DNA from: Cardiobacteriaceae bacterium TAE3-ERU3
GTDB taxonomy: Bacteria; Pseudomonadota; Gammaproteobacteria; Cardiobacteriales; Cardiobacteriaceae
Direction of reading: 5' to 3'
NCBI GenBank assembly: GCA_019218315.1
Contig: JAHUUI010000001.1
Span: 62,001-126,000 of the forward strand
DNA: 64,000 nucleotides
A program made the translations under genes and the position numbers. Below, piece by piece: positions 11,864 to 48,391 of this stretch (the stretch's first letter is position 1; the number at the start of each line of letters is the position of its first letter). Under the pieces are notes generated by a model that ran no database searches, was not told where the DNA came from, and saw nothing but the letters and a program-made list of their open reading frames with translations.

Positions 11864-11950
11864 TGGTGCCCAGAAGAGGACTCGAACCTCCACGACCGTA
11901 AGGTCACTAGCACCTGAAGCTAGCGCGTCTACCAATTCCGCCATCTGGGC
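11864..11950 (-). tRNA. tRNA-Leu (anticodon CAG)
   Basis: The minus strand folds as a class II tRNA with GCCCAGA/TCTGGGC acceptor stem, long variable arm and encoded CCA. The anticodon stem CTAGC/GCTAG closes loop TTCAGGT, giving anticodon CAG. Length is 87 nt with CCA. The 3' 26 nt recur with one mismatch at 23741-23766. Confidence 0.95.
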
Positions 11951-22144: not shown

Positions 22145-23605
22145 ATGAACTACCACCAGCACAGCGTCGCCGAACTCTCACGCCTACTCGAAAATGGCGA
22201 AACCACCTCGGTCGAACTCACAGAATACTTTTTGCAGCGCATTGAGCAGCACAACCCCGAGCTCAATTGCTTCATCCGCATTGAGCGCGAACACGCACTT
22301 GCCACCGCTAAAGCAGCAGACGCACGCCGCAATGAAGGCAAAACGCTTTCACCACTTGACGGCATCCCAATGGCGCACAAAGATCTCTTCTGCACCAAGG
22401 ACATCCCGACCACGGCCGCATCCAAAATGCTCGATGGTTTTGTGCCTTCCTATGACGCCACCATCGTCGAAAATCTTGCCAACGGCGGCGCAATCATGCT
22501 CGGCAAATTGTCGATGGATGAATTTGCGATGGGCTCATCAAACGAACGCAGCTACTTCGGCGCCGTGAAAAATCCATGGCAAACAGAGCACGTCCCCGGT
22601 GGCTCATCCGGCGGCTCAGCCGCAGCTGTTGCAGCGCGCCTCGTACCTTATGCCACTGGCTCAGACACCGGCGGATCAATCCGCCAGCCAGCTGCCTACT
22701 GCGGCATCACAGGCATCAAGCCAACTTATGGCACCCTGTCGCGCTACGGCATGATCGCTTTTGCCTCGAGCCTCGACCAGCCAGGTCCAATGGCCGCAAC
22801 CGCGGAAGACCTCGCACTGATCCTCAATCAAATGGGCGGGCACGATCCCAAGGACTCTACATCGAGTGAAAAGACCCACACCGTTTTCGACACCGAACTC
22901 GGTAACTCACTCGAAGGGCTGACCATCGGCTTGCCAACAGCGTACTTCAACAACCTTGACCCAGTCATGGCTGAGCGCATTAAAGCCGTGGCCAAGCAAT
23001 ATGAAGCGCTTGGTGCGACAATCAAGGACGTTGAGCTGCAATACAGCGACGTCGCGATTGCCACCTACTACCTTATTGCCAGTGCCGAAGCCTCATCGAA
23101 CCTATCACGCTACGACGGCGTACGTTATGGCTACCGCTGCACTGATCCCAAAGACTTACAAGACCTCTACTGCCGCAGCCGTGGCGAAGGCTTTGGCGAA
23201 GAAGTGAAGCGCCGCATCATGATCGGCACCCACGCACTCTCAGCTGGCTATTACGACGCCTACTACGAGCAGGCACGCCGCGCACGCCGTGCGATCCTCG
23301 ACGACTTCAATGCTGCTTTCGAGCAAGTTGACGTGATTTTGGGCCCGACCACCCCGGCACCTGCATTCAAGCTCGGTAGCAAAACTGATGATCCGGTAGA
23401 AATGTTCCTCGGCGACCTCTATACCGTCTCGGTCAATCTCGCCGGCCTTCCTGCAATCAGCCACCCAGCTGGATTTATTGACGGGCTGCCAGTCGGTGCA
23501 CAGCTCATCGGCCCACATTTCAGTGAACCGAAGCTGCTCAATGCGGTACATCAGTACCAGCAACACAACGACGATCACCGCAAAATCCCGGCTGACTATC
23601 AATAG
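22145..23605 (+). CDS. gatA: Asp/Glu-tRNA amidotransferase subunit GatA
   Basis: GatA is the glutaminase that supplies ammonia to GatB. The 486-residue protein has the amidase-signature Ser-cisSer-Lys site: PMAHKDLFC holds the Lys and [32 protein letters not shown] holds the Ser residues. An ATG at 22145 follows AAGGAAG. It is normally followed by gatB, but here a strong terminator and a SulP gene follow, so gatB must be elsewhere if present. Confidence 0.96.
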
Positions 23606-23619
23606 TCAAGTCAGGCTTC

Positions 23620-23652
23620 AAGAAACGGCGCAATTTATGCGCCGTTTCTTTA
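23620..23652 (+). terminator. Terminator of gatCA
   Basis: AAGAAACGGCGC and GCGCCGTTTCTT form a 12-bp perfect stem with a 7-nt loop, 14 bp past the gatA stop. Confidence 0.92.
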
Positions 23653-23740
23653 TAAAAAGAGGCATAATATTTAGTCAATCCAGGTAAAGAAAGACTAAAT
23701 AGCTATACCCGCTTCTGGTGTCGCAACCTGCTCATCACAA

Positions 23741-23766
23741 AGGTTCAAGTCCTCTTCTGGGCACCA
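23741..23766 (+). pseudogene. Orphan 3' fragment of tRNA-Leu (candidate attachment-site scar)
   Basis: Starting AGGTTCAAGTCC and ending TTCTGGGCACCA, these 26 bases match the T-arm, acceptor end and CCA of the tRNA-Leu(CAG) at 11864-11950 with a single G-to-A change in the T loop. No 5' half or anticodon arm lies upstream, so this is not a working tRNA. Such 3' duplicates are what integrases leave when an element inserts in a tRNA, but no integrase is visible nearby. Confidence 0.8.
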
Positions 23767-23866: not shown

Positions 23867-25360
23867 ATGTTTGACTTTTCTCCTGCCACCCTCAAGCGCG
23901 AGTGGTTCGGCAATGTGCGCGGCGATATGCTCTCCGGCCTTGTCGTTGCCCTCGCCCTAATTCCAGAAGCCATCGCTTTTTCCATCATCGCAGGTGTTGA
24001 TCCAAAAGTCGGGCTGTATGCCTCGTTCTGCATCGCATTCATCATTGCTTTTGTCGGTGGCCGTCCCGGCATGATCTCGGCCGCAACTGGCGCAATGGCG
24101 CTACTGATGGTTACCTTGGTCAAGGAACACGGGCTAGAATACCTCCTTGCGACCACCCTGCTTACGGGTGTCCTGCAAATCTTTGCCGGTGTACTACGCC
24201 TCGGTACGTTGATGCAGTTCGTCTCGCGCTCAGTCGTCACCGGCTTCGTCAACGCGCTCGCCATTCTCATTTTTATGGCGCAGTTACCCGAGCTGACCCA
24301 CGTCACATGGCATGTTTACGCCATGACCGCAGCCGGGCTTGCCATCATCTATCTATTCCCATATCTGCCTAAAATCGGGCAAATGCTGCCTTCTCCATTG
24401 GTTTGTATTGTCGGGCTGACCATTGTCGCCATCCTGCTCGACTTACCAATCCGTCGTGTTGGTGACATGGGTGAACTGCCCGATACTCTGCCAATTTTCC
24501 TGTGGCCAAACGTACCACTCAACCTCGAAACTCTGTGGATTATTTTGCCTTATGCGCTCGGCCTGTCTGTGGTCGGCTTGCTTGAGTCATTGATGACCGC
24601 CACCATCGTTGACGACCTCACCGACACCCCAAGCAACCGTAACCGCGAATGTACCGGACAAGGCATTGCCAATATCGGTGCCGGGCTGTTCGGCGGCATG
24701 GCAGGCTGTGCAATGATTGGGCAGTCAATCATCAACATCAAATCCGGCGGCCGCGGTCGCCTTTCAACGCTGATTGCTGGCGTCGTACTCATCTTTATGG
24801 TCGTTTTTCTCGATGAATGGATTGGGCAAATCCCCATGGCTGCATTGGTTGCGGTGATGATTATGGTTTCCATCGGTACATTTTCATGGCAATCCATCCG
24901 CGATATGCCCAAATACCCACTGCGCACCAATATCGTCATGCTATCCACTGTCGCTGTAGTGGTATGGACGCACAACCTTGCTCTTGGCGTCCTTGCTGGT
25001 GTATTGCTAGCCTCCGTATTTTTTGCACATAAAATCGCACATTATCTCGATGTACTGCGCAAAGCCGATGCGGAGCACCCTGATCAGGTTACTTACACCG
25101 TTGTCGGGCAGGTATTCTTTGCGTCTGCAGAAAATTTCCTGCGATTTTTCGACTTTAAAGAAGCGGTGCGCAAAGTAACCATCGACGTCTCACAAGCACA
25201 CTTTTGGGACGTTACCGCAGTCAGTGCACTGGACAAAGCCGCGGAGCGCTTCCGCCGTGATGGTGCTGAAGTTGAAGTCATTGGTATGAACGCAGCGACG
25301 CGTACTGTGGTTGATCAGTTCAGCAAGCAACACCCTGACTTGCCACAACATATCATTTGA
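23867..25360 (+). CDS. SulP-family anion transporter with STAS domain
   Basis: The 497-residue inner-membrane protein has the SulP start ([33 protein letters not shown]) and many transmembrane segments to about residue 395. A short C-terminal STAS domain follows ([25 protein letters not shown]). The family imports sulfate, bicarbonate or dicarboxylates coupled to Na+ or H+; the substrate cannot be told here. Start ATG at 23867 has a poor Shine-Dalgarno. It stands alone after the tRNA fragment. Confidence 0.88.
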
Positions 25361-25454: not shown

Positions 25455-25618
25455 GCGCTAACCATGGTTTGGCAAGCAGATAGACTGCTAAATAAATCAT
25501 GCGCAATACAACAACCAGAGATACGGACTAGTGAATCGGTGTTCCCCCGACCTTTTGTAAAGCCCCGACACGCAGTACAATGCAGGCATACTCGAAAATC
25601 ATGACTCAGGAGAACCGC

Positions 25619-26467
25619 GTGACCTACATTATTGCCGCCCTCGATAATTCTGACCAGCAGCATCATGTTATTGATGCAGCCATTTGGGCGGCTTCACGCC
25701 GTGGCGATGGCATCCGCTTTGTTCATGCACTGGAAAAACCCACTGACAGCAAAGCCGAACTCAGCGGCAATATCGGCCTTGGCACGCGTGAGCACTTACA
25801 AGCACAACTCGTCGAAATGGACGCACAACGCAGCCGCATGGCCTACGAACATGGCTTGCTTCTCCTCAAGGATGCGGCACAAATTGCCATTGATGCAGGC
25901 ATCGAAGAACTCGATATGCAGCAGCGCCACGATGAGCTACTGCCCACCCTACTCAATTACAGCAAAGACGCTTCACTATTCGTCATGGGTCGTCGCGGCA
26001 CCAAACACAGTGAAAAAGAAGCAATCGGCACCCACATCGAAACAGTAACGCGCCGTGTCGAGCAGCCAGTCCTGCTAACCACCGGTGAATTCACCGCACC
26101 CAAGGCAGTGATGATCGCTTACGATGGCCGTGAAACTGCTCTTGATCTGATCCGCAAAATTGCTGACGGCCCAATTTTGCACGGGCTCGACATCCACGTC
26201 GTCATGATCGGAGACGACAAGCTCGCCAACCATGAAGCGCTCGACAAAGCTGCACAGCTGCTCGCCCATACCGGTGGGAAAATCACACCAGCACTGGTAA
26301 AAAGTGATGACACCCTCACCGCCATCAATCAATACATCACCGATCACGACATCGGCCTGCTGGTCATGGGTGCCTTTGCCAATAATAGCGTCCGCCGCTT
26401 ATTTCTCGGCAGTAAAACCCTAAAGATGATCGCAGCCAGCCAAGTTCCCTTACTGATCATGCGCTAA
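25619..26467 (+). CDS. Tandem universal stress protein (two UspA domains)
   Basis: The 282-residue protein has two Usp domains. The first ends with FVMGRRGTKHSEKEAIGTHIETVTRRVEQPVLL and the second with LLVMGAFANNSVRRLFLGSKTLKMIAASQVPLLIMR. The N-terminal copy keeps an ATP-binding-like Gly motif, while the second is degenerate. I choose the GTG at 25619, 7 bp after AGGAG, over the ATG at 25601. It resembles UspE-type proteins of general stress protection in the cytoplasm. Confidence 0.85.
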   Translation: MTYIIAALDNSDQQHHVIDAAIWAASRRGDGIRFVHALEKPTDSKAELSGNIGLGTREHLQAQLVEMDAQRSRMAYEHGLLLLKDAAQIAIDAGIEELDMQQRHDELLPTLLNYSKDASLFVMGRRGTKHSEKEAIGTHIETVTRRVEQPVLLTTGEFTAPKAVMIAYDGRETALDLIRKIADGPILHGLDIHVVMIGDDKLANHEALDKAAQLLAHTGGKITPALVKSDDTLTAINQYITDHDIGLLVMGAFANNSVRRLFLGSKTLKMIAASQVPLLIMR

Positions 26468-26636: not shown

Positions 26637-27152
26637 ATGAGCTTTAACGGTGAACAACACCCAGGCGTCACTCTTGACCGCCCCCAAGAAGCACAAGGCT
26701 TCACCTTTAACCACACCATGCTGCGCATCAAAGACCCAAAAGTCTCGCTCGATTTCTACACCCGAATCATGGGCATGACTGTTGTACGCCGCAGTGACTA
26801 CGAAAACGGCAAATTCACCCTCTACTTTCTCGCACGCCTCAACCCCGACGAGCAACCACCACAAGACAAAGACGAGCGCAAAAATTGGGTTGCCAAACAG
26901 CGCGGCATTCTCGAACTGACCCACAACTGGGGTACAGAAAACGACCCCGACGCACACTACCACGATGGCAACAAACAACCACAAGGCTTTGGCCACATCT
27001 GCTTCAGCGTGCCAGACTTTGACGCCGCTATTGCGTGGTTCGACAAAAACAACGTCACCTACCAAAAGCGCCCCGAAGACGGCACCATGAAAGACATTGC
27101 GTTTATCAAAGACCCTGACGGCTACTGGATCGAAATCATCGGTTATCAATAA
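26637..27152 (+). CDS. gloA: Lactoylglutathione lyase (glyoxalase I)
   Basis: GloA converts the methylglyoxal-glutathione hemithioacetal to lactoylglutathione. The 171-residue protein has metal ligands in the expected places: His26 (FNHTML), Glu in GILELTHNWG, His in GFGHICFSV and Glu in YWIEIIGY. The insert between them (about DEQPPQDKDERKNWVAKQRG) resembles the Zn-type, eukaryote-like class rather than the short Ni-type E. coli GloA. A GGAG lies before the ATG. Confidence 0.94.
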   Translation: MSFNGEQHPGVTLDRPQEAQGFTFNHTMLRIKDPKVSLDFYTRIMGMTVVRRSDYENGKFTLYFLARLNPDEQPPQDKDERKNWVAKQRGILELTHNWGTENDPDAHYHDGNKQPQGFGHICFSVPDFDAAIAWFDKNNVTYQKRPEDGTMKDIAFIKDPDGYWIEIIGYQ

Positions 27153-37965: not shown

Positions 37966-38415
37966 CTATCTCGCTATTTCTTTTTCTAAATTAACCAGGT
38001 CGATAATGAAAACAGGATACTCATCCGGGTTGTTCAATCCTCGTACTTGTATGTAACGCGCAATAAGTGGATGATCGCCTGGTGCCTTGTCAATAAAATC
38101 ATCAGCTCGACAAACCATAAATTGCGGCAAACCGACGGAACGTAAGATAAAACCGAAGGAAGACGCTTGCTTTTGCAGCGGCGCAAACCAAATCAGTTTT
38201 TCATCATCAGTTTCTAGTGGCTGGCCTTCTAGAAGTAGCCCTAAGTCAACAACGTCAAGTTTATCATTTTGTACAATGATAGACCCCAAAATATAATTAG
38301 CCTTATCTTCTGAGGGTATAAGAGGTGCATGGGGTAATATTTGTCGCACCATCGCCGCAGGTAAAACTGCAAAAGCATTTGCCAGAGGTACAATGACTAT
38401 ATCTAGCTTATCCAT
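37966..38415 (-). CDS. chpC: ChpC-like CheW-domain protein
   Basis: The roughly 149-residue protein is a single CheW-like domain (LDIVIVPLANAFAVLPAAMVRQILPHAPL, ANYILGSIIVQNDKLDVVDLGLLL). In Pseudomonas the twitching Chp system has a second CheW-like protein, ChpC, after ChpA. The start at 38415 (MDKLDIVIVP) overlaps the chpA stop by 8 bp. It likely docks a receptor to ChpA. Confidence 0.75.
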   Translation of the reverse strand: MDKLDIVIVPLANAFAVLPAAMVRQILPHAPLIPSEDKANYILGSIIVQNDKLDVVDLGLLLEGQPLETDDEKLIWFAPLQKQASSFGFILRSVGLPQFMVCRADDFIDKAPGDHPLIARYIQVRGLNNPDEYPVFIIDLVNLEKEIAR

Positions 38416-41400
38416 CAATAACCTCTTCACCTGAATTTCGTAACAACTCACCAAGTAACATAAGCAACTCTTCTTCTTGATACGGCTTACCTAGGTAACC
38501 ATCAACACCAATTTCATCAGCTTTTGCCCGATGTTTTTCGCCTGTACGAGATGTGATCATAATAATGGGCGTATGTGCATAACGAGCTTGAGCACGTAAC
38601 TGCTTGGCAAACTCATAACCATCCATCCGAGGCATTTCAATATCGAGCAAAATCAAGTCTGGCTCAAACTGAGGCAATAACTCCAATGCGTCTATACCGT
38701 CCTTGGCCGCCTGAGCCTCATAGCCATGTTTATCAAGCAAACGCAAACCGACTTTACGCATGGTCACAGAGTCATCCACAACCATAATTTTTACCCGTTT
38801 ATCAGTATGGGATGACTGCTCTAATACTACTGGCTGCTTTTGATCAACATACGTAACCAGCTCACTGATGTCCAAAATTGGCAAAACATCACCATTTGCC
38901 ATCACAGAAGCGCCCAGAATACCTGGAATAGCCAATGTCAATTGACGCGTATCCTTGACAACGACTTCCATACGATTCACGACTTTATCAATCTGCAATA
39001 TCCGCCCAGAATGGTTATCTGTATACCGAACAACTAGACCTGGCGACTTTTGCTGATCCTTGCTCAAATCATATTGCTTGGCAAAATAACCACCTAAAGG
39101 CAATACTTGATAATGCTTACCATGGTAGTCATACGTCAAATCTGTCGATTTTGAAAGCAGCCAACTATGATCAAGCTGTACAATTGAGTCAATAGATGCC
39201 ATCGGTACAGCATAAACTTCATGAGCTATTTCTATAACCAATATATCGACAACACTCATACCCAGCGGTACTGTGACATGAAATTCAGTTCCTTTTCCCG
39301 CAATACTGTGTATAGATAAACGACCACGACGTTTTTGAATCAGATCGTTAACAACATCCATTCCAATACCACGGCCAGCCAGCTGGCTAACTTTTTTACT
39401 TGAGCTGATCCCAGCTTTTAGTAATAAGGAATTCAAATAGGCATAGTCATCACTTTGTGCTTCATCAAGTAAGCCTTTTTCTCGTGCTGATTGACGGATA
39501 GCGTCGTAATTAATACCCGCACCATCATCAATAATCCTCACACTCAACTCATTGGCAACACTTTTAACATCTATCTTGATTGTGCCGATTTCAGACTTTG
39601 ATGCTTGAATTCTCGTATCAGCATCTTCCAAACCATGAGCTACTGCATTACGAATAATATGCTCAAGTGGTGCAAGAAGGTCATCAAGTAAATTACGCTC
39701 AATTTCAATGTCTCCACCAACAATACGTAGTTCTACCTTTTTCCCAGTTCCTTGACTAACCTGACGGACTAAGCGTCGTAGGCGACCAGAATAGGCATTA
39801 AAGCTAATTAATTGCGTACTGACTAGCGCATCCTGAATATTATGCAGAATCAAGTGTTGCTGGATATTAAAGCCTTTAAAACTGCTGATATCCATTTCCA
39901 TCGCTTGCTGGAGATTATTCAAATCCTCAACCGATTCTGCAAGCTGGCGTGATAATTGCTGTATTTCAGAAAAGCGATCCATTTCAAGCGGATCAAAATC
40001 TTTTCCATAGTCAGTATGCTCACGCCTAAATAATATTTGACTTTCAGTACGGCTATTCAGACGGCGTAACTGCTCATCAAGACGCTGGACCACCCGCTCT
40101 AACTCATTCAGACCATACTCCGAACTACGAGCACTTTCATCCATGGCTACTTGAAGGACACCAGCCTCACCGACCATAGAGCTCAGCCATTTCAAAAGAT
40201 CTTCACTCACCCGAACATGCCTATTGGCCTTGTTTATAATCGAATGATCAACTAATGGTTCAGCGGGCAATTGATTCTGTATCTGTGGAGCATCTACAAG
40301 TGATAAATCTTTATTAATATCAGATTTATGCTCATCTTCTTGAGATACTGGTCTATAATCTGCTGCAATAGATTGGCCAGAGTCAATCAAATTAAGGAAT
40401 GCTTTGATTTGCGCATTCACTTCATGCGCTGCTTCTGGTACTTGATGACGAATCACAGAGTCGATCATATCCGTTAGCGCTGTTTCAGCATTGATCAACA
40501 ATCCACGGACATCAGCTAACTCATCTTCTTGCAGGTAAGGAATCTTCTCAACAACAGATTCCACAAGATGTGCTGTATCTCCAATCATCAACAAATCAAC
40601 CATGCGCGCACCACCTTTCAGTGTATGCATACATCTTTGAATTTTCTGCTGAGTATTAGACTCAACCAAATTATTATTCAATGCAGAGCGAACTTCTTCT
40701 AAAAGCTCTTGTGCTTCTTCAGTAAAAATTTCAATCAGCTCTTCTGACCAGGAAATATCTTCATTTGTAATAGGCTCACTTGAATAATCAGTCGACAAAG
40801 AGAACTGCTTTTCGCCAGTACTCTGACCCGATACGTTATCGGCTTGTACTGATTCGCTACCCTCTTTATCTGATGTTCGATCAGAAAGATTTGTGCCTGA
40901 GTTATACAAACTAGACTTTGCCAATACCAGTTGATCTATGGTTTGATTAAGTACCCTTTTGTTGTCAAGATCATCTACATCTGATCCATTTTCATCAGAA
41001 ATAAGCTCAATTAGTTCAGCAGCATAACAAAGAACATTTGCCAAATCAGGATCAAGTACTGTGTGTGTTGTCAATGCCTCGATTACTTGTTCTTTAACAT
41101 CAAGTAATCGCCAGAATTCATCAGGAGTATTGTAGGCTGTCAGATTTTCTTCAATATCATATATAGCTTCTTTAGTCTCATTAACTAACGCCAAAGTAAC
41201 ACCTTGCTCAAGCTCGCGTATCAATGCCTCATAACCATCTATTGATTTCAATAGAGCAGATTTGAAATCACTTTGCAATGCATCCTTAAAGCTGTCATCT
41301 CCCGATGCCTCCTGAGCCTTAGCAGCACTAATATTCTGTAACGCTATACCAAGATTATCCAATTCCTCAAAGTCTTCACTTTTACCAGCTTCACTATGCT

Positions 41401-44400
41401 CTTCCCCTGTAGTTTTAAGCTGTAACATGGCCGAAGTAAATTTTTGTGCTGCAAGTGTCTTGGCATAATCTGTTAATGCATGTAATACTTCTTCGAAAGG
41501 TGCTAATGAGCTATGAGTGCTTGCCTGTTTTAATATTTCCGTCAACGCTTTTAAACTTGTTGTTGCTTGCTCATCCACTAAATGATACTCACCGCAGACA
41601 GAGAAAAGGTCTTTGTTAGCTTCCACACATTGAGCCAAATTTGTGAAAAATACACTTTGAGCAGCACCCGTCAAATTAGACAAATACTCTTCCAATAATT
41701 TTGTATCATTACCTTTTATATTTACATCATCTAAGGCATTTATAAGACGCTCAGCCCAGTCATTCAGGTCATACAAAAAGAAATCTACTGCCTCATGAGG
41801 AATATCTGCTTGCAGCGCATCAAGCTCTTGCTGATGAGCAGCTGTCACTTTATCATTAATTGGTACATTCCCAGCTGCAATACTTGCTACTAATCCATCA
41901 TCAATGGGACCTTCAAATAAACTTGCATTATTCACATAAATATTGCTGATATTTGTCTTTTCCACCTCTTCCGCTGCAATTTCCTGTCTATCGATACTAA
42001 TGAGAGAAGAAGTACCTTGCTCTTGATGGGTAGCGAGGGAATCATCAGTATAAGTTTTATCGTCTTTATCTTTCCCCCCTGAAATATCAGGATCTACATG
42101 TCTTTCAGTCGCAAGTTTAGCATCAGGATAATCTACTTCTTTGTCTGAGCCTGCACCTAAGGTCATACCAGTTTCAAGCGTATTTTTAGTATTGTCACCT
42201 AGCCGTGCATCAGTGTTATATTCTTGATTATCAATTTTATTTCCAGCCCCTTCTCCTTCCAATACAGAAGTTCTGTTACCTACTGTTTGATCTTCAGTAT
42301 CAGGCGTCGTAACTGAACCACCTTGCTCTTCTAACCCCACCTCAATTGGCCGCATAGCTGGGGTGCTTTCTTCCACCTCTTGCTGAGTGGTCTGGATATT
42401 GGCCACAATAGACTTATTCTCATCTATCTTTTCACTTGAAATATGGTCGTTATCATCTGTAAACACAGGCTCTTTTTCTACTTTGCCATACTCTAAAGCT
42501 TCGCTTTCTTCAAGCTCAATATCCTTAGTGACTTCGCGAGTATATTCTTGATTTTCCAAACCATCTGTAACATTAGAAGCATTGTGAGAATATTCTTTTC
42601 CTCCTGTTAATATTGCAGAAGTTTGGCCTGCATCAGATATTTGTTTATCGCCTGATTTAGACAACTCATCATATGAAGTGACTTGACTAGGCGAAATTGT
42701 ATTTACTGCAGATAATGATGCATTGTCTACATCTATCCCCTCATTACTATCTCTAGCAGTAGCATATATAGAAGTCGCCTGATCTTGTGTACTCGGTACA
42801 CCATCATCCATTCTTGCACCCTGCAGATTTCTTTGGTGCATATTTTGTATGGCCTTATTCTGCTCTAATGAAGCAAAGATACTATCCAAGAAAGGCTGGA
42901 ACTCTTTACTATTCCCTCCACTCTTAATTTCAAATGCCTCTTGCAATGCATAACGGATACCAGCGCTATAATCATCTTCATTTTTATAATACTCACGGTT
43001 CAATGCAAAATCATTTGCTAATGTATTAACAAATGCTTCAAAGAGTTCATCAGGTATTTTTTCTTTACGCTCAAGAGCTGGGACGACTGCACTAAGCAAC
43101 TCTGCAAATGAAGTAGTATCTATGGAGAATTCTTCATCACTGTTAATATTGCTGGCAAGATGAGCACTTTCATCTGCAACTGTATTAATTTGTTGTGTTT
43201 CTAGTGGTAATTCACCATGAACTGCTATTTGATCAGACTGATCGCCTTCACTTAAAGATGATTCCTGCTCCTGCTCCAACTGTCTATGGGCAGCAACAAG
43301 GGTCTGTGAGACACTTTTAACTTGATCATCAGACATACTTGGCAATGTATGGTGTAGTTGATCTGTCAAGACTTGAGCATCAACTAAACCATTGTTATCA
43401 ACATCTGGGTTACTACGTAATTTATGCACTAACATATTAATGCTTGCAGCCTCAGCCAGTATTGAATCATCTCCGTACTTATTCAACATCCGCTCAACCA
43501 GTGGCCCCAATGCTCGTGCAATTGTTACTTCCAAGGTATTGACAGAGTCGCTTTCACTTTGCATAGCAAGATCTTCTACACCCAATATAGTCGCAGGTGA
43601 TACTACATCTTCTTCAGAAGATCCTTCTGCGGTCTGATCAAAATCAAAGAAGTTTTCGTTTTCTTCGCTTGAAGTCAAGTCATCAGCATTAGCAGATGCG
43701 CCTACAGCATCACTTCCACTGTCTATATTCCTTGCCGAAATAGTTTTGCTTGCACCATCGACAACATCAGCAGATGTAAAATCACTCCCTTCAAAATCAA
43801 ACAGACTATCTTCACCCTGAGCCATTGACTCTGATGAACTTGGTGTTACAGAAACAACATCCCCTTCAGTAGCACTATCTGGCGCCAGATCAAAATCAAA
43901 GAAGTCTTCGTTTTCTTCGCTTGAAGTCAAGTCATCAGCATTAGCAGATACGCCTACAGCATCACTTCCACTGTCTATATTCCTTGCCGAAATAGTTTTG
44001 CTTGCACCATCGACAACATCAGCAGATGCAAAATCACTCCCTTCAAAATCAAACAGACTATCTTCATCCTGAGCTATTGACTCTGATGAACTTGGTGTTA
44101 CAGAAACAATATCCCCTTCAGTAGTACTATCTGGCGCCAGATCAAAATCAAGAGTTTCTTCATGGTCTACAGTAGATAAAGGATTTTGATTCGCCGCATC
44201 TGCCCAACTTTTCCCTGAACTTCCTAAGCCTTCTAGATTATTATCATCTACATTACTAATCTTATACGCTTGATCTTTATCATGTTGAGTAGAAATATTT
44301 CCAGAGTCCTGATTTTCAACATATCCACTCTGATTATCATCAGAATTATCAGCCTTAGACACTTGTTTAAAGTGCCGGTCAGTATCAGATGGTTCATCTG

Positions 44401-46465
44401 CTTTATCTGTAACACTACTTACATCACTATCAGCATGCTCGGTTTTTTTAAAAAACTCATTTACCAGATCGCCAGAACCAGCAAAATCCACACCATCGGA
44501 GCCTTTATTGCCATTTAAAGATTGTGTTGCATCTAGTGCCAAGACAGTGGCACTAGAATCCATCAACTCTAGTGGTTTCTGAGTATCAACAATATGCCCA
44601 GTAAAAGAAGCGCCCTCCTCCAGTTCATCATCGTTAAGGCGATTTTCTATTCCCCCTTCACCACCTACCTTATTAAGCTCCTGTATCAACAATAACTCAC
44701 TATACTGTGCAAGCTGCAATAAGGCACCCCGCATACTGTCCAAAATATTGTGTTCAGCTATCAAATTGAGAAGCAAAATTGCATCTTGAAGATACTGCTC
44801 AATTTCACTTGTACAATCAATATGTTCACTCAGCAAATTATTCAACAGTGCTTCATAGCGCCACGCAAACTCACCCAATGACTCATACTGAGCCATTCTG
44901 CCAGAGCCTTTTACGGTATGGAAAACACGCCGTAGGTCTGGCATCCAAGCATCTCCTCGACTCCATGCCTGCCTTATAAGCAAACATTGGCTGATCAAGT
45001 CAGCAAACTCTTCTTTAAAAACCTCTTGAATTTCATCATCTGGCACACGAGCTGCATCTAATTTGCTATAAGCCATTTTGGACTCAGGCACTTCTATTTT
45101 TTCCAATGCCTCAATATCTTTATCCACGATCAACCGTGCAATATAGCTATAACCAGCAACATCCCCATCACTATCTTTTTGGTCGTCTTCATCATCGACC
45201 TGACTCTCATCGAGAAACTCGTCATCAAACACTCCGCCCAGCTCTTGGTCACTAATGGTTATGGATGATTGCGGTATATGTTCAGCTTGTTCATCAAGGA
45301 GCCCCATTAGATAACTAATTCGCTCGGGATCATTAAAAACATCTAAGTGAGCTTCAAGTTTTTCATAAAGAAATGCTGTATTTGGCTGGTCAATCTCTTG
45401 ATGAGATATTTCCTGAAACAAAAGTTCTGCTGCAACAAGAATTTCTATATATTTTTGGCGATCCACATCACCAGAGACAGGTTTTTTACTTAGATCTACA
45501 CAATAGAATGCAAGTTGTCGTAGTAGCTGAGCAAGCTCTTTAGAACCCAGCATCAAATACAAGGCATATGACTCAAAGCATATCTTTGCAGCTTCTGAGC
45601 AATAATGAAGTTTCAAGTCTCCGTCTTGTTCTATAACATTACGTAGCTGTAGAAATGTATACACACCTTCCTGATTGTGCTGGCGAATATTCTGCTTTGC
45701 TCCCCCACCAAAAAAAACAATATTCGTCAAGTCGCCAGATCTATCCGAGGTATTAATATTCTGTATATCGTGCCGTAGCAACAAAATTTGCTCTGCAATT
45801 TGGGCAAGTTGCTTCTGGTCAGTAAAAGTAACGAACGCATGTGATATTTCAGATAGATGTTCTCTCGCATCCTTCAAATTCAACAGCTCAAGTGATTGAG
45901 TTAAGGCATATAATAATGAGGTATCAAACAAGCCTTCTACATCTTTTGCTGTATTCACATTGGTCTGATCCAAAATAGCAGCCAGTTCATCAAGCACTAT
46001 CATGTATTGTTTTTTTATAACTTGCCAGGTTGCAGAACTAATCACTACTTCTTTATTAACATTGTGGATAGATATATCTCCTCCACGCTCTATGTCACCT
46101 AGCAGCTGTTCTGCATAAGGCAGGTTAGCCTCAACTAGAGCACTACCACACTCCCCTTCTTTAATAAAATTATCTAGTATTAATAATACAGTGGCCAGTG
46201 CATCCACATTCTGAATCTGAGAGGAATTATGATCCGGAACACGAAGAAACAAATTGCTCAGCCTAGCTGATAGTTCTGCTGCTTTCTCCCAACCAATAAT
46301 AGCAAGTGCACCGTACATCTCGTGTAGCAGCTCTATAATAGATTGATGCAGCCCTGATTCTGGCCGCTGAAACCAATCCTCCGTCAAATGGCACACACCA
46401 TCAATATCCTTAGTTAATTCTTGTTGGACTTGTTTCAATAATTCTTCTGTAAGGTGATGTGTCAT
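38408..46465 (-). CDS. chpA: Giant hybrid chemosensory histidine kinase ChpA/PilL
   Basis: ChpA is the CheA-like kinase of type IV pilus chemosensing. The 2685-residue protein (Pseudomonas ChpA about 2470) has an N-terminal Hpt-like region, an Hpt near residue 515 (FHTVKGSGRMAQ), an acidic low-complexity middle (about 600-1700), an Hpt near 1945 (CMHTLKGGARMVD), HATPase (RNAVAHGLEDADTR, IIDDGAGINYDAI, near 2270-2300), a CheW domain (2410-2545) and a C-terminal receiver (KIMVVDDSVTMRKVG, LILLDIEMPRMDGYEFA). His and Asp phospho-sites are present in both Hpts and in the receiver. The middle contains a tandem duplication listed separately. Confidence 0.95.
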   Translation of the reverse strand: MTHHLTEELLKQVQQELTKDIDGVCHLTEDWFQRPESGLHQSIIELLHEMYGALAIIGWEKAAELSARLSNLFLRVPDHNSSQIQNVDALATVLLILDNFIKEGECGSALVEANLPYAEQLLGDIERGGDISIHNVNKEVVISSATWQVIKKQYMIVLDELAAILDQTNVNTAKDVEGLFDTSLLYALTQSLELLNLKDAREHLSEISHAFVTFTDQKQLAQIAEQILLLRHDIQNINTSDRSGDLTNIVFFGGGAKQNIRQHNQEGVYTFLQLRNVIEQDGDLKLHYCSEAAKICFESYALYLMLGSKELAQLLRQLAFYCVDLSKKPVSGDVDRQKYIEILVAAELLFQEISHQEIDQPNTAFLYEKLEAHLDVFNDPERISYLMGLLDEQAEHIPQSSITISDQELGGVFDDEFLDESQVDDEDDQKDSDGDVAGYSYIARLIVDKDIEALEKIEVPESKMAYSKLDAARVPDDEIQEVFKEEFADLISQCLLIRQAWSRGDAWMPDLRRVFHTVKGSGRMAQYESLGEFAWRYEALLNNLLSEHIDCTSEIEQYLQDAILLLNLIAEHNILDSMRGALLQLAQYSELLLIQELNKVGGEGGIENRLNDDELEEGASFTGHIVDTQKPLELMDSSATVLALDATQSLNGNKGSDGVDFAGSGDLVNEFFKKTEHADSDVSSVTDKADEPSDTDRHFKQVSKADNSDDNQSGYVENQDSGNISTQHDKDQAYKISNVDDNNLEGLGSSGKSWADAANQNPLSTVDHEETLDFDLAPDSTTEGDIVSVTPSSSESIAQDEDSLFDFEGSDFASADVVDGASKTISARNIDSGSDAVGVSANADDLTSSEENEDFFDFDLAPDSATEGDVVSVTPSSSESMAQGEDSLFDFEGSDFTSADVVDGASKTISARNIDSGSDAVGASANADDLTSSEENENFFDFDQTAEGSSEEDVVSPATILGVEDLAMQSESDSVNTLEVTIARALGPLVERMLNKYGDDSILAEAASINMLVHKLRSNPDVDNNGLVDAQVLTDQLHHTLPSMSDDQVKSVSQTLVAAHRQLEQEQESSLSEGDQSDQIAVHGELPLETQQINTVADESAHLASNINSDEEFSIDTTSFAELLSAVVPALERKEKIPDELFEAFVNTLANDFALNREYYKNEDDYSAGIRYALQEAFEIKSGGNSKEFQPFLDSIFASLEQNKAIQNMHQRNLQGARMDDGVPSTQDQATSIYATARDSNEGIDVDNASLSAVNTISPSQVTSYDELSKSGDKQISDAGQTSAILTGGKEYSHNASNVTDGLENQEYTREVTKDIELEESEALEYGKVEKEPVFTDDNDHISSEKIDENKSIVANIQTTQQEVEESTPAMRPIEVGLEEQGGSVTTPDTEDQTVGNRTSVLEGEGAGNKIDNQEYNTDARLGDNTKNTLETGMTLGAGSDKEVDYPDAKLATERHVDPDISGGKDKDDKTYTDDSLATHQEQGTSSLISIDRQEIAAEEVEKTNISNIYVNNASLFEGPIDDGLVASIAAGNVPINDKVTAAHQQELDALQADIPHEAVDFFLYDLNDWAERLINALDDVNIKGNDTKLLEEYLSNLTGAAQSVFFTNLAQCVEANKDLFSVCGEYHLVDEQATTSLKALTEILKQASTHSSLAPFEEVLHALTDYAKTLAAQKFTSAMLQLKTTGEEHSEAGKSEDFEELDNLGIALQNISAAKAQEASGDDSFKDALQSDFKSALLKSIDGYEALIRELEQGVTLALVNETKEAIYDIEENLTAYNTPDEFWRLLDVKEQVIEALTTHTVLDPDLANVLCYAAELIELISDENGSDVDDLDNKRVLNQTIDQLVLAKSSLYNSGTNLSDRTSDKEGSESVQADNVSGQSTGEKQFSLSTDYSSEPITNEDISWSEELIEIFTEEAQELLEEVRSALNNNLVESNTQQKIQRCMHTLKGGARMVDLLMIGDTAHLVESVVEKIPYLQEDELADVRGLLINAETALTDMIDSVIRHQVPEAAHEVNAQIKAFLNLIDSGQSIAADYRPVSQEDEHKSDINKDLSLVDAPQIQNQLPAEPLVDHSIINKANRHVRVSEDLLKWLSSMVGEAGVLQVAMDESARSSEYGLNELERVVQRLDEQLRRLNSRTESQILFRREHTDYGKDFDPLEMDRFSEIQQLSRQLAESVEDLNNLQQAMEMDISSFKGFNIQQHLILHNIQDALVSTQLISFNAYSGRLRRLVRQVSQGTGKKVELRIVGGDIEIERNLLDDLLAPLEHIIRNAVAHGLEDADTRIQASKSEIGTIKIDVKSVANELSVRIIDDGAGINYDAIRQSAREKGLLDEAQSDDYAYLNSLLLKAGISSSKKVSQLAGRGIGMDVVNDLIQKRRGRLSIHSIAGKGTEFHVTVPLGMSVVDILVIEIAHEVYAVPMASIDSIVQLDHSWLLSKSTDLTYDYHGKHYQVLPLGGYFAKQYDLSKDQQKSPGLVVRYTDNHSGRILQIDKVVNRMEVVVKDTRQLTLAIPGILGASVMANGDVLPILDISELVTYVDQKQPVVLEQSSHTDKRVKIMVVDDSVTMRKVGLRLLDKHGYEAQAAKDGIDALELLPQFEPDLILLDIEMPRMDGYEFAKQLRAQARYAHTPIIMITSRTGEKHRAKADEIGVDGYLGKPYQEEELLMLLGELLRNSGEEVIDG
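43640..44143 (-). repeat. 252-bp tandem duplication inside chpA (two 84-residue units)
   Basis: Residues about 774-941 of ChpA are two near-identical 84-residue units. Each contains FDLAPDS-TEGD, EDSLFDFEGSDF, ADVVDGASKTISARNIDSGS and ANADDLTSSEENE. The DNA copies differ at only a handful of bases, implying a recent duplication or ongoing gene conversion. The unit is in frame and in the acidic linker, so copy number could vary without breaking the kinase. Confidence 0.9.
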
Positions 46466-46520
46466 AAAATTCCCTCTTAACTAGCTAGAAAGGCTATAAG
46501 CCCATCCAATTGAGACTCAA

Positions 46521-47831
46521 TCAGTCTTCACTTTTTGGCAATGTAAAGTGTGAGACTGATCCCTCAAGATCACTAGCCAGTTCACTTAAATTATTTATCG
46601 CATCACTAGTTTTACTAACATTCTGCATATTTTCTTCTGCAATAATATTGACATTCTTCATTTCAGAAGCGATTTTTTTGGCTCGATCCGATACTTGCTG
46701 AGTAGATTGAGATATTCTGTCGATTAGCGATGCTAATGATGTTGACACACTCTCAATCTTGTTCAATGCATCACCAGCCTGCTCAGCAATATCAGCACCA
46801 TTCACCACTTCCATCGTCGACTTTTCCATTGAGTGAATAGCCTCACCAGTATCTCCTTGAATAGTATTAACCAGTGATTCGATCCTACGAGTCGCTTTTG
46901 TAGAACGCTCTGCCAATTTTTGCACTTCATCTGCAACGACTGCAAATCCCTTTCCGGCCTCACCGGCAGCTGAAGCCTGAATTGTCGCATTTAATGCCAA
47001 AATACTAGTTTGATCAGCAATACCTTTAATCATTTCAACGATATTACCAATTTCTTGTGAACTTTCACCAAGGCGCTTGATGCGTTTTGAAGTATCTTGA
47101 ATATGCTCACGGATCTTGTTCATCCCCTCGATCGTATTATGTACTTTTTCAGATCCGTTTCTTGCGATTTTTACAGACTCTCGAGCAATCTCAGCAGAAT
47201 CAGTTGTACTCAATGATACCCGATCAAGAGAGTGTACCATTTCACCAATGGTAGTCGTCATATTGACGATCATTTGTTTCTGCTCAATAGAAGAACCTCG
47301 CATTTCTTCTGCAAGCTTTTTAGTCTTATGAGACGCCAAGCTCACCTGATTTGAGGTACTATTTATAGTGCCAACCAAATCTCTCATTGACTCTATCGCA
47401 TAGTTAACCGAATCAGCGATCGCACCTGTAAAATCTTCCGTGACTTGTGCCTCTATCGTCAAATCTCCATTAGAAAACTCAGCAAGCTCATCCATCAAGC
47501 GTAAAATAGCATCCTGATCGCGACGAGCACGAATTTCAAGGGTCGCTATTTGCGAGGCAGTAGCCGCTTGCTCCTCAATTTTTTTACGTAAATAACGCCA
47601 ACCAATAAAACCAGTCAAAATCGACAAAACCAGTGCAAGTGGTGCTATATAGTTAACCGTTAGCACATAAAAATCATAGCCCATAAAATCAAGGCTACTA
47701 TCATGATCAAATACCACTAAGACGGCTAGTGAGATAACAACCAATATGATCGTTAGTATGGACAGTAACATTGGTACAGAGGCGCTTGGTAAATCTGATG
47801 ATTTCTCTTGCACTTTCGCTTCTTCTTTCAT
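46521..47831 (-). CDS. pilJ: PilJ-like methyl-accepting chemoreceptor with minimal periplasmic region
   Basis: The 436-residue receptor has transmembrane helices at about 20-41 and 61-82, separated by only about 20 periplasmic residues. A HAMP-like segment and a long MCP signalling coiled coil follow, with the hairpin tip EMIKGIADQTSILALNATIQASAAGEAGKGFAVVADEVQKLAE. Pseudomonas PilJ (682 residues) has two periplasmic PilJ domains; both are missing. It may sense through the membrane, pili or partner proteins. It lies between pilI and chpA. Confidence 0.9.
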   Translation of the reverse strand: MKEEAKVQEKSSDLPSASVPMLLSILTIILVVISLAVLVVFDHDSSLDFMGYDFYVLTVNYIAPLALVLSILTGFIGWRYLRKKIEEQAATASQIATLEIRARRDQDAILRLMDELAEFSNGDLTIEAQVTEDFTGAIADSVNYAIESMRDLVGTINSTSNQVSLASHKTKKLAEEMRGSSIEQKQMIVNMTTTIGEMVHSLDRVSLSTTDSAEIARESVKIARNGSEKVHNTIEGMNKIREHIQDTSKRIKRLGESSQEIGNIVEMIKGIADQTSILALNATIQASAAGEAGKGFAVVADEVQKLAERSTKATRRIESLVNTIQGDTGEAIHSMEKSTMEVVNGADIAEQAGDALNKIESVSTSLASLIDRISQSTQQVSDRAKKIASEMKNVNIIAEENMQNVSKTSDAINNLSELASDLEGSVSHFTLPKSED

Positions 47832-47845
47832 CTTAAGTATCCTAT

Positions 47846-48391
47846 TTAAAATTCCATTTCTTTATGTAACTTGGTAGCAAGTAATACATCAAGATTAATC
47901 CGTTGCCACCGCAACCCTTCTACAAGTGCATAACCGTCTATTATCGCACTACTGGAAAGTATTTTTTCAACATCTAAAGATCTTATTCCGATCAATTTAT
48001 CCACTTCCAGCAAAAAGCCATTCATAACGCCATTCAAAAGGATGTAGTGCATGTCTTTTTGCTTACTATTCGATTTTCCCTTATGTAATTGCGAGAAAGA
48101 TACAACAGAAACAATTTCATTACGTACGCTACTTAAACCTTGAAACCAACTTGGAGAAAAAGGTAAAGGCTTGATAACAGGCTTCTCTCGAATGACACTA
48201 CTTATATTTTCTACTGGAATTAAAAATCCTTCACCTTCAGCCATGAACATCAAATAGCTCGGCAATGAGGCATAATCATTTTCCTTTAAAGCCCCTTTTA
48301 GCAAGGCTGTATCAGCATAATAGGATAGCAACTGAAAAGGTGTCATAGAGTCTATTGTTTGATCAATTTCTTGATCAAAGTGGGTTTTCAC
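47846..48391 (-). CDS. pilI: CheW-like adaptor PilI
   Basis: The 181-residue protein has a CheW domain (YLMFMAEGEGFLIPVENISSVIREKPVIKPLP, FQGLSSVRNEIVSVVSFSQL). PilI couples PilJ to ChpA. It begins with GTG at 48391, overlapping the pilH stop by 4 bp (GTGA). It is 14 bp upstream of pilJ. Confidence 0.88.
   Translation of the reverse strand: MKTHFDQEIDQTIDSMTPFQLLSYYADTALLKGALKENDYASLPSYLMFMAEGEGFLIPVENISSVIREKPVIKPLPFSPSWFQGLSSVRNEIVSVVSFSQLHKGKSNSKQKDMHYILLNGVMNGFLLEVDKLIGIRSLDVEKILSSSAIIDGYALVEGLRWQRINLDVLLATKLHKEMEF

Follow-up and report, generated by a model that had tools for sequence, protein, structure and literature searches.

A candidate insertion scar between gatA and a SulP transporter gene: an orphan tRNA-Leu(CAG) 3' end in a Cardiobacteriaceae genome

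The 3' end of a tRNA-Leu(CAG) gene, consisting of the T arm, the 3' acceptor strand and the CCA, stands on its own at 23741-23766 (plus strand) in the gap between gatA and a gene for a SulP-family anion transporter in Cardiobacteriaceae bacterium TAE3-ERU3. The stretch of DNA analysed, here called the window, has 64,000 nucleotides (C1:62001-126000, on the 740-kb contig C1), and the genome searched amounts to 2,412,223 bases (2.41 Mb) in 11 contigs. The fragment is a real but minor relic of a general kind already known, that of tRNA gene remnants, and we consider it, with slightly better than even confidence, a non-functional scar at the gatA-side edge of inserted DNA of about 3 kb, which carries the SulP gene and the gene of a universal stress protein (USP) and parts gatA from gloA. 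We infer that the fragment and the two genes arrived together from a foreign source: DNA with an end bearing a tRNA-Leu 3' end, as the attachment sites of integrative elements do, would have come in and would have inserted or recombined between gatA and gloA, any mobility genes being lost later.

The parent of the fragment is easily recognized. Its sequence is identical at 25 of 26 positions, CCA included, to the final 26 bases of the gene for tRNA-Leu(CAG) at 11864-11950 (minus strand), one of the four tRNA genes called by ARAGORN in the window, and the base after the CCA, a T, is also shared, which brings the identity to 26 of 27. The sole mismatch is a change from G57 to A, in what we take to be position 57 of the T loop. 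A search of the whole genome for the tRNA-Leu 3'-end pattern, with up to three mismatches, returned these two sites only, in agreement with BLAST (E 1.4e-6), and a 25-base pattern in which both bases are permitted occurs twice in the window and in none of 100 dinucleotide shuffles. Chance, for which no supporting point was found, is therefore excluded as the origin of the match, and the first-pass annotation was right in describing 26 bp with one mismatch and the CCA; it left unstated that the two copies, 11.8 kb apart on the same contig, have opposed orientations.

The 5' edge of the fragment is sharp and lies at the T stem. ARAGORN calls no tRNA at the fragment, and Rfam reports none there at E up to 10. 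When the 80 upstream bases, anchored at the fragment, were aligned with the 5' part of the tRNA, the score was 15.5, as compared with 59.5-87 for three real tRNA-Leu genes, and scores at least as high were obtained for 8% of 1500 random stretches of the window and for 2% of 1500 shuffles; these last figures also led us to reject TTCTGGTG, which aligned to the CAG anticodon loop and looked like an upstream tRNA remnant. In another anchored run, with gap costs set differently, the fraction was 0.063 of 300 shuffles, and unanchored alignments against 2000 shuffles gave 0.054 with the host tRNA, 0.014 with that of G001, the sole genome of the same genus, and 0.61 with that of G007. There is thus no clear remnant upstream and a faint one is possible, so that the earlier statement that the rest of a tRNA is missing broadly stands for ARAGORN, Rfam and the anchored test, while the looser tests (0.014-0.61) leave room for a trace. 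An edge at the T stem, preceded by hardly any tRNA similarity or none, is what a scar would look like. A deletion explains this edge equally well, and in the main rival reading, which we regard as unlikely, the host had a second copy of tRNA-Leu(CAG) whose 5' two thirds were deleted and whose 3' end was left. The difference of a single base from the host's own gene and the value of 0.014 obtained with the G001 tRNA are consistent with such a truncated duplicate, but the sequence downstream of the intact gene is absent at the fragment, since only one base matches after the CCA in the strict alignment (a looser BLAST match extends for six bases with two mismatches).

The identity of the differing base also bears on the choice between a duplicate and a foreign source. 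A57 was seen in none of the six tRNA-Leu(CAG) genes of the family that were read (the host's own and those of G001, G003, G004, G007 and G009), all of which have G, a fact that counts against a duplicate and for a scar. Elsewhere the fragment's exact 26-mer is present in five of 369 genomes of the class Gammaproteobacteria, the host included; in the other four genomes it has five sites, four of which, one per genome, end intact tRNA-Leu(CAG) genes, and the fifth of which lies at the start of a contig (L089) with no tRNA called. It also ends an intact tRNA-Leu(CAG) in a Halomonas record. That A57 belongs to a 26-mer with which intact tRNA-Leu(CAG) genes end elsewhere in the Gammaproteobacteria is no more than a hint of foreign DNA; against the scar, the base may instead be a single ordinary transition in host DNA. 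The idea that the 216-base stretch came from a phage or a plasmid was considered and rejected: there was no phage match, and the only match in the plasmid collection is confined to the 26-mer and is the intact Halomonas tRNA-Leu. Separately, a viral contig of IMG/VR (L077) has, in an 11-kb stretch with 15 tRNA genes, its own tRNA-Leu(TAG) that ends in the 25-/26-mer of the fragment, and no further link between this contig and the fragment was found.

The fragment lies within the 261 bases between gatA (22145-23605, plus strand; NCBIfam TIGR00132) and the SulP gene (23867-25360, plus strand), whose product has a STAS domain (Pfam PF00916 and PF01740) and scores below the NCBIfam SulP cut-off. 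The USP gene follows (25580-26467, plus strand; Pfam PF00582), a frequent partner of SulP, and then gloA, the lactoylglutathione lyase gene that forms the right flank (26637-27152, plus strand; NCBIfam TIGR00068). At about 23619-23650, just after gatA, the alignments show a hairpin that the terminator scan did not flag, and a perfect 9-bp inverted repeat lies upstream of the fragment (23668-23676 and 23693-23701); the 7-bp core pattern of this repeat was found in seven of 159 loci, all seven being this very site.

The case for an insertion at this place comes from the relatives. In Rappaport israeli (L016, L028 and L085, all of one genome) gloA directly follows gatA, whereas in the host SulP and USP separate the two. 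Among the gatA loci compared, this adjacency occurs in Rappaport israeli only, and in G001 no gloA was found; thus the two genes were either inserted in the host or lost in Rappaport israeli, and the possibility of loss in this one relative counts against the scar as the adjacency counts for it. In the Rappaport israeli record (L028, 7480-7934) the gloA match falls into two pieces that overlap and differ in frame, and the gene may be frameshifted.

The first-pass annotation named two findings in relatives that would speak against it, the fragment as part of a complete tRNA or of a small RNA that is conserved, and neither was seen at the site of the fragment. The named gatA loci number 12, nine of them assigned to Cardiobacteriaceae by their title or their genus (Cardiobacterium, Dichelobacter or Rappaport). 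ARAGORN found no tRNA-Leu in ten of these 12 loci (L034 and L035 were left out), nor in the longer regions examined on both sides of gatA in G001 and in Rappaport israeli (G006), a set that overlaps with the former; other tRNAs (Gly and Cys, or Thr) lie farther off in three of the ten. Furthermore, the 1.5 kb downstream of gatA in eight family genomes (G001-G008) gave no match to the fragment or to its flanks. None of the relatives tested has a complete tRNA-Leu at the fragment's place, which speaks for a scar and against a truncated duplicate, and with no clear 5' remnant either, the decayed tRNA that had been offered as the second half of the earlier interpretation gains little. Its first half, a past integration or excision near 23.7 kb, is plausible as an insertion in view of the gatA-gloA adjacency in Rappaport israeli, but no tyrosine integrase match was found on the contig and no second copy or direct repeat of the fragment's core of at least 14 bases was found at the USP-gloA edge, shorter cores being beyond the reach of the method.

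SulP of this type (E below 1e-150) is patchy in the family, being found in two of 12 genomes, the host and G001, at different places, in keeping with a scar. A USP match follows SulP in 31 of 38 SulP loci, the host's own included, which makes the SulP-USP pair a common unit; one of the seven loci with no USP match (L042) ends soon after SulP. In a tree of 38 rows the host SulP stands apart from that of G001, suggesting separate origins, but a single clade was not rejected by the AU test (p 0.126; 36 rows kept, L045 and L051 dropped), and separate origins were not retained. A foreign composition was likewise discarded, the codon use of SulP and USP not being deviant among 32 window genes. With this p-value and ordinary codon use, both of which weigh against the scar, a horizontal origin of SulP-USP is at most a possibility. 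Nor does SulP appear to travel with tRNA genes: among 38 SulP loci of other genomes, none has a tRNA-Leu within about 1.5 kb on each side, so that no donor order tRNA-Leu-SulP was found, a further point against the scar, and any tRNA at all was found in one of the 38. This is a tRNA-Ser(GCT) in L045 (G013, of the same order; 1074-1500), with the SulP-USP pair about 330 bases downstream.

The position of the fragment upstream of SulP raises the question of a present role, although the 3' third of a tRNA alone cannot form a tRNA. It could have been co-opted, with TGGGCA serving as the -35 box of a SulP promoter or with the fragment forming part of a folded SulP leader RNA, and we regard this as very doubtful. 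A promoter-like site at 23758-23786 matches at nine of 12 positions, with TGGGCA 17 bases before TATCAT, and the 216-base leader folds better than its shuffles (z -2.37, four of 200 as good). A match of nine of 12 is weak, however, as two such sites, one per strand, were found against a shuffle mean of 0.4, and no similar leader exists in the loci compared. Least probable of the readings weighed here, apart from chance, is a combination of the two ideas, in which a foreign tRNA-Leu 3' end came with SulP-USP and now acts as a putative -35 box, an attachment site turned into part of a promoter.

The fragment is not the border of a standing island. According to the Islander paper (PMC4383910), a tRNA fragment must share the orientation of the tRNA gene and an integrase must lie in the interval, wrong orientation even being used there to gauge false positives. 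As in the attR fragments described there, ours is a terminal 3' tRNA piece with CCA on the replicon of the intact gene; unlike them it is reversed, the intact gene being on the minus strand and the fragment on the plus strand, no island lies between, and no tyrosine integrase match is present on contig C1, the eight matches to PF00589 in the genome all lying on other contigs. Wrong orientation and the absence of a tyrosine integrase match on the contig are the grounds for rejecting a standing border, and the missing integrase also weighs against a scar. It could still be that the fragment is the displaced attachment fragment of an island once seated at the 11.9-kb tRNA-Leu, and that it was afterwards inverted and its island lost, a reading that we find improbable. 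The shared contig, the 11.8-kb distance and the terminal 3' nature of the piece fit it, but the opposite orientation and the lack of an integrase between the copies both correspond to rejection filters of Islander (PMC4383910). Moreover, the gene order from 17.3 to 23.6 kb is kept in several relatives, so that an inversion, though conceivable, would have had to carry the whole block.

The likely displaced attachment fragment that exists elsewhere in the host genome looks different, a further point against this reading. In the genome, a pattern running from T arm to CCA is matched 48 times (backward control 11), 42 times in tRNA or tmRNA genes and six outside them, and two of these six equal or nearly equal, by eye, the end of a host tRNA: the present fragment and an end of tRNA-Val(GAC) on contig C5. 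Both are orphan tRNA 3' ends outside a tRNA gene. The similarity of the tRNA-Val piece (L154, 9634-9719) to the intact gene spans 86 columns, from the anticodon loop up to and including the hairpin that follows the gene. Integrase-family matches (C5:977-3439) lie about 6-9 kb from the piece; it is likely a displaced attachment fragment, whereas the tRNA-Leu piece matches from the T arm to the CCA plus one base only and has no integrase-family match on its contig. The intact tRNA-Val(GAC) gene is on C9 (L159, 2296-2372), and together with the fragment and the integrase matches on C5 it probably reflects an integrated island split between contigs.

We return to the scar as the preferred reading, in which the fragment is a minor trace of DNA movement in the past and singles out the gatA-gloA interval as one that has gained or lost genes. 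A study of prokaryotic tRNA gene fragments (PMC9897764) regards remnants that integration leaves of tRNA genes as a pervasive feature to be expected of prokaryotic genomes, and ties its Thermococcaceae fragments to integrated elements or to a CRISPR spacer; unlike those, the host fragment has no source that we could find. Such pieces matter mainly because they can show where inserted DNA begins or ends and because, as the same study points out, they are open to mis-annotation as tRNA genes (PMC9897764).

Elsewhere in the window, the genes at 38408-48391 are low in GC (36-41%, against 47% for the nearest genes on either side) and encode a CheA-like protein of 2685 aa (Hpt, ATPase, CheW and receiver domains) as well as one protein with an MCP domain and another with a CheW domain.
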